Shown here: one piece after another, positions 997 to 10,062 of the stretch | Layout of the letters: every line of letters begins with the position of its first letter | How positions within the stretch are numbered: the stretch's first letter is position 1 | Source of the DNA: Epulopiscium sp. Nele67-Bin004 | GTDB lineage: Bacteria > Bacillota_A > Clostridia > Lachnospirales > Cellulosilyticaceae | Reading direction: 5' to 3' | Length of the DNA stretch: 22,340 nt | NCBI GenBank assembly: GCA_002007315.1 | Contig: LNZQ01000014.1 | Span: 1 to 22,340, forward strand | Position numbers and translations under genes: made by a program | Notes under the pieces: generated by a model | What the model was told of the DNA's origin: nothing | Database searches by the model: none | Seen by the model: only the letters and a program-made list of their open reading frames with translations

Positions 997-1782
997 TTAC
1001 CAAAGTCTATCATCTTGCAAATCAAATCCAAATACTTGAAGCACTTCAAGATTATCACTTCTAGCGATATCTCTTGGCCACACTGTAGGGCCACCATCAT
1101 CATCTATATCAATTCCAAACTGCTTATAAATTTGCCATACAATATGCGAACATTGTGTTGTTTTTGAATTTTCTCCAATTGCAAAAATAAAATACGGAAT
1201 ATCCATAAAATTTTCTAGTGCATATTTTGCAACCTCGTCAAGCTTCTCTTGAGAAAATCCTACTGGTTTAAGCATAATAAAAGTGGGATAAAGTTCCCAT
1301 CTATCGGCATTTTGCAATACTGTTACTGTGCCAGGTTCAAGTGATTCAAGAACAAGCCCGTTTTCGGCGTCAACAACAATTGCAGCGTGTCCATGTCTAA
1401 CTCCGAGAGTTTTTGTGGATTTGGTCAAAAATATATATCCATTTTGATAAGGTGCAAGTTCAAATGCATTCACAACTTCTTCGTCAAAAAACACTTGATC
1501 CCACTTTGTTAGAGCGTTCATCGCAGTTTCTATAACGTCTATATCGTTAAAGTAGTGGTGTTGTAGTGAAAGCATTTCTTCTGTATAATTGGGACGATTT
1601 TTGATTTCGTCTATCAAGCTTTTTGTAATTCCTGTTTGCAAATATAACGTTTCGTAATCGGCATCAGAATAAAAATCTTGTTGCAAAATATATTCAATAT
1701 TTATTTGTTCGTATGTTGGTGCATAAAATTGTGGGGCAGATAATGTATAAAAAATTAGAACTAATATAAGCAATAATGTCAT
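997..1782 (-). CDS. Secreted YiiX/NlpC-P60-like cysteine hydrolase
   Basis: The protein has 261 residues. The N-terminus (MTLLLILVLIFYTLSAPQ) is a short signal peptide or membrane anchor. The C-terminal half carries the permuted papain-like arrangement: a His in VRHGHAAIVVDAENGLVLES, then about 85 residues later a Cys in TTQCSHIVWQIYKQFGIDID. In this fold the segment with H precedes the segment with C, as in YiiX/YebB-type (DUF830-like) members of the NlpC/P60 superfamily. The proposed active-site pair is therefore the His of GHAAIV and the Cys of TQCS. Known relatives cleave amide or thioester bonds in cell-wall peptides or lipids; the substrate here is unknown. The region between the signal and the catalytic domain is mostly helical and acidic. 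A GAAAGGA ribosome binding site precedes the start. The gene stands alone, divergent from tgt. Confidence 0.65.
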   Translation of the reverse strand: MTLLLILVLIFYTLSAPQFYAPTYEQINIEYILQQDFYSDADYETLYLQTGITKSLIDEIKNRPNYTEEMLSLQHHYFNDIDVIETAMNALTKWDQVFFDEEVVNAFELAPYQNGYIFLTKSTKTLGVRHGHAAIVVDAENGLVLESLEPGTVTVLQNADRWELYPTFIMLKPVGFSQEKLDEVAKYALENFMDIPYFIFAIGENSKTTQCSHIVWQIYKQFGIDIDDDGGPTVWPRDIARSDNLEVLQVFGFDLQDDRLW

Positions 1783-3024: not shown

Positions 3025-3408
3025 ATGATAGCTGGATCAGTAAGTGGAATTATAGGTTGGGTTTTATATTTTGGATTTTTCTTTGGAGTAATGTGGTTAC
3101 TAATTATTAGACCACAAAAGAAACGTGATGATAAAGTTAATGAAATGAGATCAACAATAAAAACAGGTGACACTGTATTATTAAACAGTGGAATTTACGG
3201 TAAAGTAGTAGATATAATTAATGAAGTATTTATTATAGAAATCGGTATGAACAAAGGTATTAGAATACCTGTAAAACGTCAAGCGGTTATCGGAGTTGAG
3301 TCACCAAACCTAACAGTGGGCAAACAACAAGCATCGCCTAAAGTTGCAGATGAGGACGATTATGACGACTATGAAGACGATGATGAATACGAAGACGACG
3401 ACGAATAA
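3025..3408 (+). CDS. yajC: Preprotein translocase subunit YajC
   Basis: YajC is a small membrane partner of SecDF-SecYEG. The protein has 127 residues: one membrane helix at about 8-28, then the family signature IIRPQKKRDDKVNEMRSTIKTGDTVLLNSGIYGKV and a beta-rich region ending near residue 90. The last about 20 residues are an almost purely Asp/Glu/Tyr tail, longer and more acidic than in most family members; its role is unknown. A GGAGG site precedes the ATG. The tgt-yajC pairing is common, but here secDF does not follow; the next gene is on the opposite strand. Confidence 0.93.
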   Translation: MIAGSVSGIIGWVLYFGFFFGVMWLLIIRPQKKRDDKVNEMRSTIKTGDTVLLNSGIYGKVVDIINEVFIIEIGMNKGIRIPVKRQAVIGVESPNLTVGKQQASPKVADEDDYDDYEDDDEYEDDDE

Positions 3409-3424
3409 AAGCTTATTTTTATAG

Positions 3425-3453
3425 TTGTACCATAAAATGAACAAAGCATAATA
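3425..3453 (+). promoter_or_regulatory. Possible sigma-A-like promoter upstream of the long intergenic hairpin
   Basis: TTGTAC (3425-3430), a 17-base spacer and ATAATA (3448-3453). The region is very AT-rich, so a chance match is likely. If real, it would drive a short RNA containing the 3519-3562 hairpin and ending at the 3615-3649 terminator. Confidence 0.2.
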
Positions 3454-3518
3454 AAATATTTATAAAATATTTATAGCATAGTCATAAAATGTTAAAATGT
3501 ATAAAGTATTATAGTATT

Positions 3519-3562
3519 CAAGAGTTACTACTAGGTCCCCCAACCTAGTAGTAAAACTCTTG
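3519..3562. other. Long intergenic hairpin with a C-rich loop, function unknown
   Basis: The left arm 3519-3536 and right arm 3543-3562 are complementary over 18 pairs, with one two-base AA bulge in the right arm and a 6-base loop of five C and one A. No U-tract follows on either strand, so it is not a standard terminator. It lies between yajC and the convergent Hsp70 gene. It could be part of a small RNA, an RNase processing site, or the remnant of a small mobile repeat. Confidence 0.6.
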
Positions 3563-3614
3563 ATAAGAATCTCCCATAATATATCCCTTTTCCTGTTTGT
3601 AAATTGTAGGCAGA

Positions 3615-3649
3615 AAAAAAGAAGAAACCCCGTTGGTTTCTTCTTTTTT
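3615..3649. terminator. Bidirectional intrinsic terminator
   Basis: A 15-base arm (3615-3629) pairs with 3635-3649 across a 5-base loop. The outer part of the stem is an A-run on one side and a T-run on the other, so the hairpin is followed by U residues whichever strand is transcribed. It serves both the tgt-yajC side (plus) and the Hsp70 operon (minus). Confidence 0.85.
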
Positions 3650-3667
3650 GTTTGTGCAATTTTATTT

Positions 3668-6424
3668 CTATAAATTTTCTACCAAATATTTTTTCTCGAT
3701 TTCTTCAAGATTAGCACCATTTATAACTTTAAGCGTTGTATTTGTAGCCATTTCACATTCATTAGCAACTTTGTTTCCATAACACTCTGGCAAATATAAA
3801 AGTGTATTTTTCACATCATCTAAAATATTAGAATTAATTTTGTGGGTATCACATATGCAACCAATTGCTAGTATTACACACATCAAGTCAGATTGTTTTA
3901 GGCGAATATTGTCTATAATCTCACCAAGTTTTTTGACGATAATTTCAACCCTAGATTTTGATATTTGAGTATCATTTCTAAGTGCAGATGCTATAGCTGA
4001 AACTATTTGCGCCACATTTATTACTAACTCGTTTTGTTCAAGTTGATTGATAATCCAGTCAATATTAGTACCTGTTTTTGCATGTGCATATAAACAAGCT
4101 TGTTTGTAGTGATGATTGCGGTGCAGTAAATGCAACTTATTAATATCCTCAGGTGTTCCACAAATTGCAAGCAATTTAATCGCAGATGAGTTTGTATTAA
4201 TTTTCACTTTAGATGATGAACCTATTCCACTAAGTTCTGAACTAAGTTGAGTTAAACATAGTTTTGCTAGTTTGTGATATTCGCTTTGAGTCCATAAATC
4301 TCCAAGTCTAAATGCAATGATGAATAGTCTATTAATTACAATGTCGTTGTGATTTAGATGTAGATTTTCAAGTACTAGTGGTTTGAAATCTTCTTTATTT
4401 CCAGCGTTACAAATAGTATCAATAATAGTTTTTATACGAGTTGATACATTGCTAGATTTTGTTTGTTTCGATAAGTTGTTGCAAAGCTGTATCAAATTAT
4501 TAATTTCATCTCTTGCATTTAAAGTACTTCCATCAGGTGCTATAAATTTTGCTTTAAATTCTGCAATATCTTTTGTCGTTGTAGAAATTTCAACGATACC
4601 TTCCTCGATTTTTTGTTCACCTTTTTCGTCTAAACTTGTCCAAGCGTTCATAGTGATAACTTTATTTGTACCCATATGCAATTTGAATGCAACATATGCT
4701 CCACTTGAATATTTTCCTTTAAAGGATATATTGCCACTCGATATAGTTCTATATGTGCCATCTAAATTTTGGCTTTTTATTGGTATAGAAATTTTATTTT
4801 GCCCAGGTTCAATTCTAAATCCAAGCATAATATCAGACATATAAGGTAATTCGGAACCAGTTGGTACAATCATTGCAGTTGCTCCATTTTTAGTACCAAG
4901 ATACAAACTATCATTTAATATACTATTTCCAAATTGGATACCCATAGCCTCATAAAATGTATTTTGTTTAGTTTCTTGAACTTCATTAACCTCATTATCT
5001 TGGTTAACTTCAGGTATATATTCAACAGTTTTCATGTTATCTTGAAGTTCGGCATACTTTTGCAAATAGTGGTGATAAATAGCCGCACCACGTGCAACAG
5101 ATTGATCAGGATCTAGTGCAACAATAGGGTCAAATCCAAACAGTTGTTTAAGCCTTTCTTTAATCATATAAAATTTAGACATTCCACCATTTACGATTAC
5201 AGCATCAATATTAATATCTTTTACTTGTAGTTTCTCAGATGCCTTTTTTAGAACATCTAATATAGGGAAAATTATGTTGTTAGTATTAGTAATTGTATCA
5301 AGTTTTTTGTAGTCATCAAATACCATAGTTGGTGCCATAAATTTACCTAGTATATTCTCAATCTCATCTTTAGTAAAACTATCGTCATATGAGTAACCTA
5401 CCCCCCCCATACTACCGCCTATTTGAAGTCGTATTTCGTCATCGTCATCATCGTCATCGTCCCAATTTGATTCCCAACTACTATCAGATATATAGTCGTC
5501 TGTACACATTTCGTTTAGGTCGATTTTGATATTTTCAGCATACACCCTAAGTTGAGCCATAATTGGAGCTTCTGTATTTTTAAGTGTAGATACAACTTTT
5601 GGGTGTGATGAATATTGTTTCAAATAACGCTCATACATAGCTTTGGCGATTGCCTCATCAAAATCATCACCACCAAGTTTTGTATATCTATTTGTTGCAA
5701 TTTCGCTAACTTTTAAAACATCTTGTAAGTTATCACGTCGTTCAATTGTATGAAGTGTAATATCAAGAGTACCTCCGCCAAGGTCAAATACTAAAACGTT
5801 TTTCTTTGTACTAACGTCTAATATATCTCCATGCAGTTCGCCATTTTTTATTTGATTTATAAGGTCATAAATAACAGCATTTGGTTCAGATAACAGTATT
5901 GGACGGTCCGTCCCATCTTCATTTTTTGTTGTAATCCCTGCAAGTTCTGCCGCCTCTATAGTAGCTTTGCACATCGCAGAGTCAAAGTTGGCTGGAACAG
6001 TTATTACAGCGTTTGTAATAGGTTGCTTAAACGTTTGTTTAGTTTCGTTTATCATATGACGCAAAATATTTGCTGAAATTTGTGCTGGCGTCTTGTCTGG
6101 AATGTCGTCAGACAAACCTTCTGTTGTTGGTTTTCCCATCTGACTTTTAATAGATTTCGCCACAAGGTGTGGGCGTAGAGGATATTGAATTTTAGCAAAA
6201 TCCCCTACAAGTGGCTTGTAGCCATTTTCGGCACGATAGTATACGCAAGAAGGTAGAGTGGCTTTTTTTGCTCTTGAAATACCACCGCTTGCCCCCATAC
6301 TGTTGTATATATCAACTGCTCTTTGGACTTCAACAACTTTGCTTATAGCGTCACCATTTGGCTTGACAATAACAGTTGCAAGAACAGAATTTGTAGTTCC
6401 TAAATCAATTCCTATGCATAACAT
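3668..6424 (-). CDS. Large Hsp70-family ATPase with acidic insert and C-terminal helical extension
   Basis: 918 residues, against about 610 for DnaK. The actin-like ATPase domain (about 1-455) has phosphate-1 GIDLGTTNS (5-13), AVITVPANF near 140, phosphate-2 DLGGGTLD (214-221), LGGDDFDEA near 250, the adenosine motif VNGGMS (411-416) and LDPDQSVARGAA (437-448). ATP binding therefore looks intact. An insert at about 305-350 contains eight consecutive Asp (322-329) and a flexible Gly segment encoded by a G8 tract. Residues about 480-640 resemble a beta-sandwich substrate-binding domain. Residues about 640-918 are helical, perhaps HEAT-like, with no EEVD or DnaK-type lid visible. AAGGAGG overlaps the upstream stop codon, and the 12-base gap shows tight coupling to the GrpE-like gene. 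It is not the housekeeping dnaK: the sequence is divergent, the architecture differs, and there is no dnaJ or hrcA neighbour. Confidence 0.85.
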   Translation of the reverse strand: MLCIGIDLGTTNSVLATVIVKPNGDAISKVVEVQRAVDIYNSMGASGGISRAKKATLPSCVYYRAENGYKPLVGDFAKIQYPLRPHLVAKSIKSQMGKPTTEGLSDDIPDKTPAQISANILRHMINETKQTFKQPITNAVITVPANFDSAMCKATIEAAELAGITTKNEDGTDRPILLSEPNAVIYDLINQIKNGELHGDILDVSTKKNVLVFDLGGGTLDITLHTIERRDNLQDVLKVSEIATNRYTKLGGDDFDEAIAKAMYERYLKQYSSHPKVVSTLKNTEAPIMAQLRVYAENIKIDLNEMCTDDYISDSSWESNWDDDDDDDDEIRLQIGGSMGGVGYSYDDSFTKDEIENILGKFMAPTMVFDDYKKLDTITNTNNIIFPILDVLKKASEKLQVKDINIDAVIVNGGMSKFYMIKERLKQLFGFDPIVALDPDQSVARGAAIYHHYLQKYAELQDNMKTVEYIPEVNQDNEVNEVQETKQNTFYEAMGIQFGNSILNDSLYLGTKNGATAMIVPTGSELPYMSDIMLGFRIEPGQNKISIPIKSQNLDGTYRTISSGNISFKGKYSSGAYVAFKLHMGTNKVITMNAWTSLDEKGEQKIEEGIVEISTTTKDIAEFKAKFIAPDGSTLNARDEINNLIQLCNNLSKQTKSSNVSTRIKTIIDTICNAGNKEDFKPLVLENLHLNHNDIVINRLFIIAFRLGDLWTQSEYHKLAKLCLTQLSSELSGIGSSSKVKINTNSSAIKLLAICGTPEDINKLHLLHRNHHYKQACLYAHAKTGTNIDWIINQLEQNELVINVAQIVSAIASALRNDTQISKSRVEIIVKKLGEIIDNIRLKQSDLMCVILAIGCICDTHKINSNILDDVKNTLLYLPECYGNKVANECEMATNTTLKVINGANLEEIEKKYLVENL
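5401..5408 (-). repeat. G8 homopolymer inside the Hsp70-like reading frame
   Basis: Eight consecutive C on the plus strand read as G8 in the coding strand, encoding the end of Met plus Gly-Gly-Val at about residues 339-342. In such AT-rich DNA this is an outlier and a potential slippage site. One base gained or lost would truncate the protein within the ATPase domain. Confidence 0.9.
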
Positions 6425-6436
6425 AACAATCCTCCT

Positions 6437-7525
6437 TTAAATATTTTCTTTGACACGTGGTCTTGAAATTTGAATTTCTTTGTCACGATACATCCAACCA
6501 GGTGAAACAACTCTAACAATTTTAGTTTCTTTGGCATCATCAAATGGGCTACCTTCATAATGACAAAATTCAACGTCTGTTAAATTAACTTCTTTAATAT
6601 CATCTATTTTCATAATAGGGTCAATGTGATTATCTTGTACAAATTTTGTAAGTTTATCAACCATAATAAGAACTCCGCTTAGTTCTATTGGTAGCTCATA
6701 ATTTTCTTTTCTAAGTTTGCGAACGCCTTTTCTTATAACCAAAAGTTCGTCAAGCAAACAACCGTATTTTTCTGAGTTCAATTTGCCAAAAAAGTCTGTC
6801 ATTTCGTTAACTTTGCTTTCTTCAAGTTGAACTGCAAATTCTTCTTGAAGTTCCTCAAGCATATCATTTGTACTTTTGTGCATGTTTTCAAGTTGTATAA
6901 CTCTTTTTTCTAATTCAGCTGCTGATAATTTATTGTTTTGTTTATTGTTTTGCTTTTTGTTGCGTAGTGATACAAATCCATAAACATCACTTATTGTATC
7001 AGCAAAGTCATAAAAGAAGTATTTTGAAAATATACCACCAAATTGAAAAATTTTAGATAAATCATCAAACAAGTCAATTTCAGGATATTTATGATAAATT
7101 GCCAACAATAAAAGTCTATATGGATCATCATGTTTTTTGTAACCGTCTTTTATTAGACGATTGCGAGCTTCTTCAAATTTATCAAAGCTTTTTTTGTCGC
7201 CATTAACTGCTCCCCCAAAATATTTAACAATTTCGTTGACCCAAGCCATAACATTTTCACGTATTTTTGGATTTCCAAGTCTTCTTGATTTCCAAATTTT
7301 TATAACGTCCTCACGATCAACGGTTTGTTTGAATCTAATACTCATTTCATATGCACAAGCACTTGGTGAAATTTTTATGTCTTCACATACAATAGAAAAA
7401 ATCTGGTTTTCTAGTATAAAATCTTCGTTGTTTTTTTGTCTGATTTTTGGAGTATATTTTTCCTCCATAATTTGATGTGCTTCTTGCAATATCTTTCTTA
7501 CGTTTTCGTTACGTGTGTTAACCAT
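6437..7525 (-). CDS. GrpE-like nucleotide exchange factor with unknown N-terminal domain
   Basis: 362 residues from the ATG at 7525. An upstream TTG at 7537 overlaps the GGAGG site and is rejected as a start. Residues 1-195 are a helical domain I do not recognise. Residues about 200-240 are a heptad-like coiled coil (AAELEKRVIQLEN and on). Residues 255-298 (ELPIELSGVLIMVDKLTKFVQ) match the GrpE helical-bundle pattern. Residues 300-362 match the GrpE beta domain: VEFCHYEGSPFD in the FDPxxHEA position, KIVRVVSPGWMY in the VxxVxxxGY position, and a final SRPRVKENI like the GrpE RPAxVxV ending. GrpE proteins release ADP from Hsp70, so the partner is very likely the adjacent Hsp70-like product. 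No HPD J-domain motif is present; KKHDDP near 131 is not equivalent. The gene lies 15 bases after the MBL gene and 12 before the Hsp70 gene. Confidence 0.65.
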   Translation of the reverse strand: MVNTRNENVRKILQEAHQIMEEKYTPKIRQKNNEDFILENQIFSIVCEDIKISPSACAYEMSIRFKQTVDREDVIKIWKSRRLGNPKIRENVMAWVNEIVKYFGGAVNGDKKSFDKFEEARNRLIKDGYKKHDDPYRLLLLAIYHKYPEIDLFDDLSKIFQFGGIFSKYFFYDFADTISDVYGFVSLRNKKQNNKQNNKLSAAELEKRVIQLENMHKSTNDMLEELQEEFAVQLEESKVNEMTDFFGKLNSEKYGCLLDELLVIRKGVRKLRKENYELPIELSGVLIMVDKLTKFVQDNHIDPIMKIDDIKEVNLTDVEFCHYEGSPFDDAKETKIVRVVSPGWMYRDKEIQISRPRVKENI

Positions 7526-7540
7526 TATATCCTCCAAATT

Positions 7541-8671
7541 TTATAAATTATATATCTCTGTTTCTGCTGCAAATATAAATTGCGTGCGACAATGCCCATC
7601 ATACATAATATGTTGTTCGATAGTGTGGTCGTTTTGATGTGCCGAAGAACCACAGTGTACCACGATAATATGTTTAGGATTTGTAGTTTGTACAAATTTT
7701 TTAATGCCATCAAAATCTTCATGTAGCGAAAAATCTACCCTAATATTTTCGTAATTTTTGTAGCGGAAAGTTTCGCTTGATGAAACATAAATGTGTGGCT
7801 TGTTGGGCAAGTTACCTTTTGCGGGATAGTTATTTTTAGTTAGTATTGGAACAGTCATAGTTCCCATTTTGTCTATAAGTCCAAGTAAACCTTCGTCAAT
7901 ATATATAGGGGTATTGGTGCGATTACGTTCATTTAGAATTTTTATAAACTCTATACCTTTTGTGAGTTGGGGAACATAACATTTAACTTTTTTGCCTAAA
8001 AATATTTGACGTTCGATGTTTTCCAAAATTTTGTGTAAGTAGTTGTTTTTTGTCGTGTATTTAGGATGTTTTGCGTGAACACCACACATTATGATAGTAT
8101 CAATATTATAGCCTTCAAACATAAAACAACCATCGGTTAGAGCAGTGTTCATAACAGAATAATCGCCAGTATACAAAATTTTTCGCCTATTGTACTCAAA
8201 TAATATCATCATTGCTCCTGGGATATGACCAGCTGAAAAAAATGTTGCAGTATAGTCTTTAAATTTCATTGGTTTTGCATATGTTACAGGCACAATTTTA
8301 TCTAGGCAAGATTTTATACCAAGTCGTATCATTTGGTTTTGATTAGCTGTATAAGTTTTGTCATATAGCTGAAATTCGGTTAGCGTCTTTGTCATATCAG
8401 TCATGTAGACGTCTGCCATAGGAGTTTCCTGTATAAGTTTTGGTAAATATCCAATGTGATCCATATGGGCATGTGATACAAAAATTTGGTTAATTTGTGT
8501 CAAACTTGTTACAAATGGGGACGTTTTTAAGGCGTATAAATTTGGTTCAAAAATAACACCTTCACTGTCAAGCCCTGTACCAGCATCTAAAATTATGTTG
8601 GACTCTCCGAGTTTTAAATAATAACAACTGGCTCCAATACGTTGCCCACCCCCTAGAGCCATAAAATACAT
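7541..8671 (-). CDS. Metallo-beta-lactamase-fold hydrolase, beta-CASP/RNase J-like
   Basis: 376 residues from the ATG at 8671, chosen because AAGGAGG lies 8 bases before it; the longer frame to 8704 would start upstream of that site. The N-terminal MBL domain shows GGGQRIGASCYYL, LDAG (Asp29), HAHMDH (His67, His69, Asp71, His72), SAGHIPGAM (His149) and YTGDYS (Asp170), a full two-metal ligand set. A shortened central segment (KVKCYVPQLTKGIEF, then TPIYIDEGLLGL) resembles the beta-CASP cap of CPSF73/RNase J proteins. The end has FSLHEDFDG and PKHIIVVHCG, like beta-CASP motifs B and C. Family members cut RNA or DNA; the substrate here is not predictable. First gene of the operon. Confidence 0.8.
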   Translation of the reverse strand: MYFMALGGGQRIGASCYYLKLGESNIILDAGTGLDSEGVIFEPNLYALKTSPFVTSLTQINQIFVSHAHMDHIGYLPKLIQETPMADVYMTDMTKTLTEFQLYDKTYTANQNQMIRLGIKSCLDKIVPVTYAKPMKFKDYTATFFSAGHIPGAMMILFEYNRRKILYTGDYSVMNTALTDGCFMFEGYNIDTIIMCGVHAKHPKYTTKNNYLHKILENIERQIFLGKKVKCYVPQLTKGIEFIKILNERNRTNTPIYIDEGLLGLIDKMGTMTVPILTKNNYPAKGNLPNKPHIYVSSSETFRYKNYENIRVDFSLHEDFDGIKKFVQTTNPKHIIVVHCGSSAHQNDHTIEQHIMYDGHCRTQFIFAAETEIYNL

Positions 8672-8703
8672 AAATAATACCTCCTTATAAAGTTGATACT
8701 TCA

Positions 8704-8732
8704 ATTCTACTTCAATAGTTAAATTGTGTCAA
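8704..8732 (-). promoter_or_regulatory. Sigma-A promoter of the MBL-GrpE-Hsp70 operon
   Basis: On the minus strand, a perfect TTGACA (8727-8732) is followed by a 17-base spacer and TAGAAT (8704-8709), 11 of 12 consensus bases. Transcription should begin near 8697, leaving a leader of only about 25 bases. No CIRCE-type inverted repeat is visible, so HrcA heat-shock control is not indicated. Confidence 0.75.
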
Positions 8733-8759
8733 TTAATAGTTTATTCAGGAATAATAAGT

Positions 8760-8802
8760 AAAAAAAACAATCATACAGAATTAGATAAATTCCATATGAT
8801 TG
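8760..8802 (-). terminator. Intrinsic terminator of lysA
   Basis: 8768-8775 and 8795-8802 form an 8-bp stem (CAATCATA with TATGATTG), continued inside by GAATT/AATTC around a small loop. On the minus strand it is followed by an uninterrupted T-run of about eight. It separates lysA from the downstream Hsp70 operon, which has its own promoter. Confidence 0.85.
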
Positions 8803-8808
8803 CAAAAA

Positions 8809-10062
8809 TTACTTCATAAATGACAATATATCTTCGAATGTTTCACGTCGTCTAATTTGAGTTACTTCGCCAGATTGTTTGATTAATACTTCGCCACATC
8901 TTGGGCGTTGGTTGTATGATGTAGACATCGCAAAACCGTATGCACCAGCGTCCATAAGACCAATTAAGTCACCAAACTTTGGACGAGGAAGAACACGGTC
9001 AGAAGCAAGAATATCGCCGCTTTCGCATATGTTTCCAACAACAGTTAATGGCATTGCTGTTTCGTCAAACTCGCCAGTTGTGTAAAGCTCAATGTCGTGG
9101 TGAGAGTCGTACATAACAGGACGTGCAAGAACGTTAAATCCAACGTCTGTACCTACATATGTTGTGTCAGCATTTTTCTTTGTTCCTGTAACTTGACCAA
9201 GAATTATACCACATTCGCAAGCAACGTAGCGTCCTGGTTCGATTTGGAATTGAATTTTTTTGCCGTAGTCTTTTGCAAATCCGTTAAATAGTGTGTCCAT
9301 TTTTTGTCCAAGGTCAACAAGGTCAAGTCCAGTTTGTCCATCTTGTTTTTTGTATGGAATACCAAATCCGCCTCCAAGGTCAATAAACTCTAAGCTATCA
9401 AATTGCTTTGCAAATTCTAACAAACATGTTGTGCTCTCGATAAATGCTTCGCCGTCCATAAATAATGAACCAATATGTTGATTTATTCCAACTAGCGTCA
9501 TGTTATGTTGTTCAAGAATTTTGTTAACGTTTTCAAATTCTGACATATTTACGCCGAATTTAGTTTTTTTGCCTGCTGTAACAACTTTTTCGTGGTGTCC
9601 TGCACCAACCCCAGGGTTAAATCTAATAGCAACTTTTGAGTTTGGATTTAGTGAGCAGTATAGTTCAAGTTGTTCAACAGAGTCCACACTTGTTAAGACG
9701 TTGTTGGCGATTGCGTATTCAAAATCTTCTTTTGTAGCGTTGTTTGGGATATAAAACAATTCATCGCTTGTAAATCCGCCTTGAAGTGCCATAAAAATTT
9801 CACCTGGACTCATCGTGTCAGCGTGTAGACCCTCCTCTTTTACGATTTTTAAAATATGAATATTTGTGTTTGCTTTTACTGAGTAGTGTGGAACAAAGTT
9901 GCTATATGACACTAAATTTTTCATATCTCTACAACGTTTGCGTAAAATCTCCTCGTTGTAAACGTATAGAGGACTTCCGTACTCTGAAACTAAGTCAAAT
10001 GGACTGTTTTGTGCGAAAAAATTTGTGTCAGTTGTGTAATTACCGTGCATTGTTTTGTACAT
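8809..10062 (-). CDS. lysA: Diaminopimelate decarboxylase
   Basis: This PLP enzyme converts meso-diaminopimelate to lysine, the last step of lysine synthesis. At 417 residues it is full length for the fold-type III family. The PLP lysine is in VPHYSVKANTN. HADTMSPGE and IDLGGGFGIPY (the phosphate-binding glycines) follow, then EPGRYVACECG. The second-domain Cys of the active site is in VVGNICESGDIL, and MDAGAYGFAMSTSYN ends the catalytic region. AAGGAG lies 7 bases before the ATG. It is a single-gene unit with its own promoter and terminator. The leader is too short for a lysine riboswitch. Confidence 0.95.
   Translation of the reverse strand: MYKTMHGNYTTDTNFFAQNSPFDLVSEYGSPLYVYNEEILRKRCRDMKNLVSYSNFVPHYSVKANTNIHILKIVKEEGLHADTMSPGEIFMALQGGFTSDELFYIPNNATKEDFEYAIANNVLTSVDSVEQLELYCSLNPNSKVAIRFNPGVGAGHHEKVVTAGKKTKFGVNMSEFENVNKILEQHNMTLVGINQHIGSLFMDGEAFIESTTCLLEFAKQFDSLEFIDLGGGFGIPYKKQDGQTGLDLVDLGQKMDTLFNGFAKDYGKKIQFQIEPGRYVACECGIILGQVTGTKKNADTTYVGTDVGFNVLARPVMYDSHHDIELYTTGEFDETAMPLTVVGNICESGDILASDRVLPRPKFGDLIGLMDAGAYGFAMSTSYNQRPRCGEVLIKQSGEVTQIRRRETFEDILSFMK

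Follow-up and report, generated by a model that had tools for sequence, protein, structure and literature searches.

GrpE is usually viewed as a housekeeping protein serving DnaK, and GrpE-type proteins reset Hsp70s. Specialised Hsp70s with a dedicated co-chaperone are exemplified by HscA/HscB/IscU and the dnaK-grpE-dnaJ operon, and HscA/HscB serves a single client, IscU. In CoCoNuT systems, the protein CnuD combines Hsp70-like nucleotide-binding and substrate-binding domains (NBD and SBD) with HEAT-like repeats, and the associated genes include, according to one figure legend, a gene of the metallo-beta-lactamase (MBL) fold (PMC11090510). A subset of the GAP1-N2 GTPase systems is described as linking HSP70 with GrpE (PMC7159879), and in antiphage MBL nuclease-protease pairs the nuclease is reported to be controlled by its adjacent partner (PMC12799240). 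Furthermore, the human beta-CASP nuclease Apollo was reported to co-purify with Hsp70 (PMC5564657). Here, we describe a locus of Epulopiscium sp. Nele67-Bin004 in which an MBL-fold protein (MBL), a GrpE-type protein (GRP) and an Hsp70 (HSP) are encoded side by side. The window is the whole stretch of 22,340 nucleotides that was analysed (contig LNZQ01000014.1), and the three genes, hereafter the trio, are as follows.

7541..8671, minus strand: MBL gene, ATG start, 376 aa; CPSF73/INTS11/aCPSF1-like metallo-beta-lactamase with a shortened beta-CASP region and an RMMBL segment
6437..7525, minus strand: GRP gene, ATG start, 362 aa; divergent GrpE-type protein
3668..6424, minus strand: HSP gene, ATG start, 918 aa; Hsp70 with a helical C-terminal domain

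The trio is a real chaperone-hydrolase module, widespread but patchy, whose function we infer from its composition and conservation. We are nearly certain that the three genes make up one module. Our favoured reading, with a probability of about 0.6, is that this module is a chaperone-gated hydrolase, probably an RNase. No description of the trio was found in family libraries or in the open-access literature (most subscription papers and preprints were outside this scope), in line with the sequence-only reading, a first interpretation made from the letters of the window, which knew of no named system with this composition. In the PADLOC 2023 models, there was no good match (best E values of 0.0068 for HSP, 0.043 for GRP and 0.0015 for MBL).

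Compared with HscA/HscB/IscU and dnaK-grpE-dnaJ, the trio likewise pairs a specialised Hsp70 with a dedicated co-chaperone, but it has a GrpE-type protein in place of a J-protein, a hydrolase partner and a longer HSP. As in CnuD, which is encoded in nuclease operons, an Hsp70 NBD/SBD is followed by helical repeats (PMC11090510); HSP is likened to CnuD by domain layout alone. Unlike CnuD, which is expected to hydrolyse ATP very poorly (PMC11090510), HSP has intact, invariant ATPase motifs. CoCoNuTs also carry an McrB-type GTPase (PMC11090510). The trio resembles the GAP1-N2 systems in that HSP70 and GrpE are linked at a site other than the dnaK operon, whereas those systems are built around a GTPase accompanied by FNIII/DnaJ or TPR proteins, and the text of that paper contains no mention of a beta-lactamase or MBL (PMC7159879). 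With regard to either GTPase, no non-trio family occurred in more than 4/37 neighbourhoods, a result obtained without McrB or GAP1-N2 profile searches. Membership of the trio in the CoCoNuT or GAP1-N2 systems was dropped, there being no conserved fourth gene. Like the MBL of the antiphage pairs, the trio MBL is encoded beside its proposed controller; the partner in those pairs is instead a trypsin-like protease, and their main text mentions neither Hsp70 nor a chaperone (PMC12799240).

Gene order and co-conservation of the trio

The three genes keep a fixed order and are gained and lost as one unit. A single scan of a species-genome collection with the GRP alignment yielded 36 loci, a lower bound given its two peptide patterns. 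HSP followed GRP in 36/36 loci, and MBL preceded GRP in 33/36, two of which lie at contig ends and hold only the last 41 MBL residues (L011) or lack the first 27 (L028). Of the remaining three, L027 and L035 begin at the edge of a contig; in the L027 genome, an MBL lies close to the end of a different contig, and no close MBL was found in the L035 assembly (G007). L033 is the sole separation of MBL and GRP seen inside contigs, and its MBL is on another contig of the same genome. When the neighbourhoods of 37 sources were clustered, only the trio families occurred in more than four of them. The gap lengths, taken from a longest-frame caller with the window included, were at most 39 bases or overlapping in 30/33 MBL-GRP pairs and at most 36 bases or overlapping in 32/37 GRP-HSP pairs.

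The same pattern was seen in a sample of the order of the Selenomonadaceae seed genome G005 (this and all later distribution counts include the seed genomes). GRP was present in 33/151 genomes; MBL (E ≤ 1e-50) was found in exactly those 33 and was absent from the remaining 118, and the HSP C-terminus (E ≤ 1e-10) was present in 31/33 and in 0/118. In the two GRP genomes without the HSP C-terminus, G751 and G790, the loci end at contig borders. MBL and GRP were on one contig, at most 315 bases apart, in 32/33 genomes, and the full order was found in 14/15 loci that were read, the remaining one being that of the L033 genome. The trio thus co-occurs in the same order well beyond this genome, which answers the check proposed in the sequence-only reading, and the idea of chance neighbours was dropped on account of this co-occurrence.

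The pairwise distances of the three proteins were also correlated, with r values of 0.86-0.89 in clade 1 and 0/1000 permutations as high; common descent of the hosts accounts for part of this. This test kept 33/40 sources, 32 of them in clade 1, and dropped L011, L015, L027, L033, L035, L036 and L043 (coverage below 60% or a missing gene). Co-conservation, correlated distances and one MBL-GRP fusion (described below) support the earlier idea that an Hsp70/GrpE pair is tied to an MBL hydrolase.

If HSP and GRP were a chaperone pair for general stress, co-transcribed by chance with the gene of an unrelated enzyme, their folds alone would be explained, as these would suit a second DnaK/GrpE set. 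This explanation is already largely refuted and is highly improbable, since MBL accompanies GRP in all 33 genomes and is absent from the remaining 118 (E ≤ 1e-50), the L033 genome retains MBL though unlinked, and the MBL-GRP fusion exists. Two negative results also speak against it: no CIRCE element was found at the window locus in a search allowing up to 3 mismatches, and 36/37 sources have no linked J-protein pattern. The J-domain pattern was absent from the window and accompanied a J-protein only in L017, where the gene lies upstream; nine other matches fall inside HSP itself. The absence of both CIRCE and a J-protein from the window had been noted before. A canonical GrpE was present besides GRP in 14/14 cases, and because it is encoded elsewhere, the trio is not a canonical dnaK operon.

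Composition of the three proteins and their divergent versions

Judged by its sequence, MBL has retained a two-metal site that is complete and of the kind found in the CPSF73/INTS11/RNase J class. The most recognisable part of this site is as follows.

8456..8473, minus strand: HAHMDH metal-binding motif, MBL residues 67-72; invariant ligands, kept in clade 2

The ligands HxHxDH, H, D and H are invariant in 32/32 aligned rows and are kept in the clade-2 loci L042 and L043, so the earlier statement that all metal ligands are present holds. The beta-CASP label given at the same time stands in part. The motifs of this family are customarily named A, B and C. The motif B and C histidines are kept (H317 and H339, assigned by alignment with INTS11), but the motif-A acid is replaced by Cys in clade 1 (32/32 rows) and by Asn in clade 2 (L042 and L043). 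A motif-A Glu (IIEST) is aligned only in L092, the most divergent relative, whose MBL seems to lack the cap. MBL therefore shares its metal ligands, motifs B and C and best profile matches with CPSF73, INTS11, aCPSF1, TTHA0252 and Cas14, and it differs from these beta-CASP nucleases in its motif-A residue (Cys/Asn), its shortened cap (376 aa) and its chaperone partners. The best profile and PDB matches are RNA-cutting beta-CASP enzymes; listed homologues also bear the Apyc1-type Pfam label PF23023. In our estimate, the balance tips slightly towards MBL being a nuclease. RNA is its likeliest substrate because the best matches cut RNA, and we put this a little short of an even chance.

GRP consists of two parts.

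6980..7525, minus strand: GRP N-terminal all-helical domain, residues 1-182; modelled with nine helices, assigned to no known family
6440..6940, minus strand: GRP GrpE-like part, residues 196-362; long helix, two further helices and a beta wing

In the structure model, GRP has the GrpE-type architecture, with a long helix, a helix bundle and a C-terminal beta wing. The window GRP did not match the curated GrpE model PF01025, and the clade-3 GRP of L092 matched no GrpE model. In the genome search, the clade-2 GRPs scored 28.0 and 27.5 bits against PF01025 (cut-off 25.8); as whole proteins they scored 25.6 (below the cut-off) and 26.6 (above it). A profile-profile comparison of the GRP C-terminal half plus clade 2 with canonical GrpE gave a probability of 33% and a P value of 4.6e-4, compared with 0.26 for the reversed control and 0.02 for unrelated families; without clade 2, P was 0.04-0.075. 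The canonical GrpE profile had a 217-residue reference and sequences from 11/14 loci, one of them a 74-residue fragment. A PDB sequence search with the GRP profile returned chance-level matches only. In Foldseek, GRP had no match at E ≤ 0.001; talin, globins and Zorya coiled coils were returned, and the first GrpE stood in row 24 (E 0.63). Because Foldseek gave no significant GrpE match, the clade-2 sequences were needed for the assignment. With these homologues and the predicted structure, the GrpE-type assignment holds for the C-terminal half of GRP. The previous claim of a GrpE-like protein is thus retained for this half, though not from the window sequence alone, and the accompanying claim of a new N-terminal domain agrees with the all-helical residues 1-182.

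HSP contains three regions.

5048..6424, minus strand: HSP nucleotide-binding domain, residues 1-459; intact ATPase motifs
4583..4912, minus strand: HSP substrate-binding-domain-like beta part, residues 505-614; beta domain present
3671..4516, minus strand: HSP C-terminal helical region, residues 637-918; predicted helices

The NBD fold carries the phosphate and adenosine motifs, every Hsp70 catalytic motif checked is kept, and the ATPase motifs are invariant in 34/34 rows, as expected from the first description of a 918-residue Hsp70 with intact ATP motifs. In DnaK, a hydrophobic linker motif serves interdomain signalling. An LLLDV-type linker of this kind was found in 0/34 HSP rows, and a variable, low-confidence segment takes its place. 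HSP exceeds DnaK in length by about 280 residues, and in our reading of the model its C-terminal helices appear HEAT-like.

The trio was also recovered in strongly divergent versions. L042 (G115) keeps the MBL-GRP-HSP order at about 27-35% identity. In L043 (G179), MBL and GRP form one 794-residue frame followed by HSP, and the fused protein exceeds the cut-offs of both the Lactamase_B and GrpE models; this fusion is the best hint of contact between MBL and GRP. L092 (G951) keeps the trio order with a 278-residue MBL, a 245-residue GRP and an 869-residue HSP. Its MBL apparently lacks the beta-CASP cap but retains the residues of motifs A (IIEST), B and C, and its GRP lacks most of the N-terminal domain and was placed by a family-alignment match (E 2.2e-9). 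Further full trios were found at L087, L088, L089 and L090. These divergent versions suggest that the core under selection is the metal site, the GrpE-like half and an Hsp70 with a helical tail.

Several individual copies are recorded here for completeness. The L092 MBL (L092:151-987) is a possible minimal CPSF73-like form, and its genome G951 also bears a clade-1 GRP-HSP pair at a contig end. Two different GRP copies are present in G966 (C27 and C37; L086 and L093), one of them cut by a contig end and lying beside an MBL 61% identical to that of the window. In G741 (C15:3167-4205), GRP extends over two overlapping frames, reflecting a frameshift or an assembly error. G003 encodes two more GrpE-like frames (C5:98239-98709 and 40417-40764; 364 and 346 aa; 46.3 and 35.7 bits), both outside the canonical grpE and the trio, which possibly belong to other Hsp70-linked systems.

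Distribution, surroundings and proposed mechanism

The distribution of the trio is the pattern of an accessory unit, often moved or lost, in anaerobe chromosomes. In the sample of the Lachnoanaerobaculum family, GRP was present in 7/250 genomes (5 close and 2 divergent), and the trio was present in Lachnoanaerobaculum orale DSM 24553 and L. saburreum DSM 3986. GRP was present in 8/392 genomes of the order sample around G115. In the phylum sample, GRP was present in 1/398 genomes, the seed, as was also the case for the clade-3 GRP query (1/398, the seed). In the phylum sample of G007, it was found in 1/39, again the seed, a Riflebacteria metagenome-assembled genome (MAG). In the HSP tree, the Riflebacteria copy was placed among Bacillota copies with weak support; L092, L090 and L034 have very long branches, and deep placements were not used.

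The flanks vary from locus to locus. The flank set comprised 105 proteins of at least 110 aa, at most two per side, from 35/36 loci, and these matched 160 Pfam families (E ≤ 1e-5) and 104 PADLOC families (E ≤ 1e-10), as raw counts without a background. Among the matches listed (the best 25 of the 160 and of the 104 families), envelope, transport, metabolic and regulatory families were found together with a few defence-type ones. Counted in this way, the flanks speak neither for nor against a location in defence islands. At L025 (1946-6325) and L026 (4419-8687), the trio is preceded upstream by genes for large proteins that combine kinase, STAND-type ATPase and TPR matches. At L002 (446-2776 and 8753-15054), the trio lies in an Hsp70 island of one Lachnospiraceae genome; the upstream neighbour is an Hsp70 with an inserted PIN nuclease domain (PF13638, E 1.5e-15), and two more Hsp70-like genes follow downstream.

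The trio could serve anti-phage defence, which the sequence-only reading had named beside RNA quality control as a possible role, with HSP and GRP sensing phage proteins or assemblies and unleashing MBL as a nuclease effector. This would be a purpose compatible with the gating mechanism, and we regard it as possible rather than probable. The patchy occurrence in several families and one Riflebacteria MAG (7/250, 8/392, 33/151 and 1/398 genomes), the stand-alone operon in variable sites and the kinase-STAND-TPR genes at two loci are all consistent with it, and both Hsp70-bearing conflict systems (PMC7159879, PMC11090510) and a partner-gated MBL nuclease in defence (PMC12799240) are described. 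The defence-type PADLOC matches listed for the flanks, mad2 (4), Cas6, mad3, DpdF and AriA (2 each), point the same way, but among the matches listed no flank family exceeded 3/105 (Pfam) or 4/105 (PADLOC). Moreover, no PADLOC family matched the trio itself well (best E 0.0015), GRP had no match in plasmid, phage or viral-contig collections, and the alignments are rather conserved (mean column identity 46-58%).

In the chaperone-gated hydrolase that we favour, GRP would be the private exchange factor of HSP, a role that we consider very likely and to which the unvarying gene order points indirectly. The extra GRP domain, or direct fusion in one relative, would dock MBL onto the Hsp70 cycle, and contact between GRP and MBL is likely. 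HSP would bind a client that is a protein or a ribonucleoprotein, with no J-protein dedicated to the task. ADP/ATP exchange by GRP would couple client binding or release to the activation or release of MBL, which would then cut a phosphodiester substrate. The likeliest substrate is client-associated RNA, for example at a nascent chain that stalls or misfolds or at a ribonucleoprotein of foreign origin. The dedicated GrpE-type protein suggests that HSP has its own cycle, and since 36/37 sources have no linked J-protein and 34/34 rows no linker motif, client entry and ATPase triggering may differ from those of DnaK. As the constant third partner with an intact metal site, MBL is probably the pair's controlled target or the tool that the pair aims. 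Outside support comes from DnaJK and RNase P-dependent mRNA metabolism in Bacillus subtilis (PMC11898665), from the co-purification of Apollo with Hsp70 (PMC5564657) and from the neighbour-controlled MBL nucleases of defence systems (PMC12799240). The motif-A replacement and a clade-3 MBL that seems to have no cap call for real caution.

Alternatively, HSP and GRP might only fold, hold or metallate MBL as a private maturation chaperone, and the substrate would be another, such as a small-molecule phosphodiester. Exact co-occurrence would be expected in this case, single-client Hsp70s are known (HscA/HscB-IscU), and the Apyc1-type label PF23023 on listed MBL homologues would agree with it. However, MBL domains normally fold alone, a 280-residue helical extension of HSP and an extra GRP domain seem excessive for one client, and the best MBL profile and PDB matches are the RNA-cutting beta-CASP enzymes. 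We regard this explanation as unlikely.

A bolder version of the gated hydrolase would be a new class of bacterial surveillance machine. In it, an Hsp70 that works without a J-protein and is reset by a GrpE-type factor of its own would recognise nascent chains or ribonucleoproteins that are aberrant and would activate a tethered nuclease of the CPSF73 family. This version is speculative; if true, protein misfolding or invasion would be converted directly into RNA cleavage. The trio brings together a second GrpE-type protein, an Hsp70 of its own and a single enzyme, and this three-gene package has persisted through deep divergence in sequence. Whether an Hsp70 cycle can directly gate a nuclease could be asked in this compact system, for which the MBL-GRP fusion makes a direct structural prediction. 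One bacterial precedent was found for such a link, DnaJK of Bacillus subtilis, which is reported to influence RNase P-dependent mRNA metabolism (PMC11898665).

Signals and neighbours of the window locus

The window locus carries the following expression signals.

8704..8732, minus strand: promoter TTGACA-N17-TAGAAT; 11/12 consensus matches, top promoter-like site in 3400-9000
8680..8686, minus strand: ribosome binding site AAGGAGG of the MBL gene, from sequence
7531..7535, minus strand: ribosome binding site GGAGG of the GRP gene, from sequence
6431..6437, minus strand: ribosome binding site AAGGAGG of the HSP gene, from sequence
3615..3649, minus strand: intrinsic terminator; hairpin of -17.5 kcal/mol, z -4.9, 0/200 shuffles equally stable

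The gaps are 15 bases between MBL and GRP and 12 bases between GRP and HSP. The three minus-strand genes with these gaps and strong GGAGG-type sites, the near-consensus promoter and the terminator are thus where the sequence-only reading had placed them. Promoter-like sites as a class were not enriched in 3400-9000 (35 versus 28.4 ± 5.8 in shuffles), the terminator was absent from the output of a consensus scanner, and Rfam gave no match at the gathering score.

Relatives from the Epulopiscium group were 61% (MBL), 55% (a partial GRP) and 54% (HSP) identical to the window proteins, and a nearer GRP relative with 89% identity was found. From their translations, we take the neighbouring genes in the window to be tgt, yajC, lysA, an asp23-like gene, nusB, xseA, ispA, dxs, recN and spoIVB, presumably housekeeping and sporulation genes. 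Adjoining tgt, the frame at 997-1782 (minus strand, 261 aa) looks from its translation like a YiiX/NlpC-P60-type cysteine peptidase.

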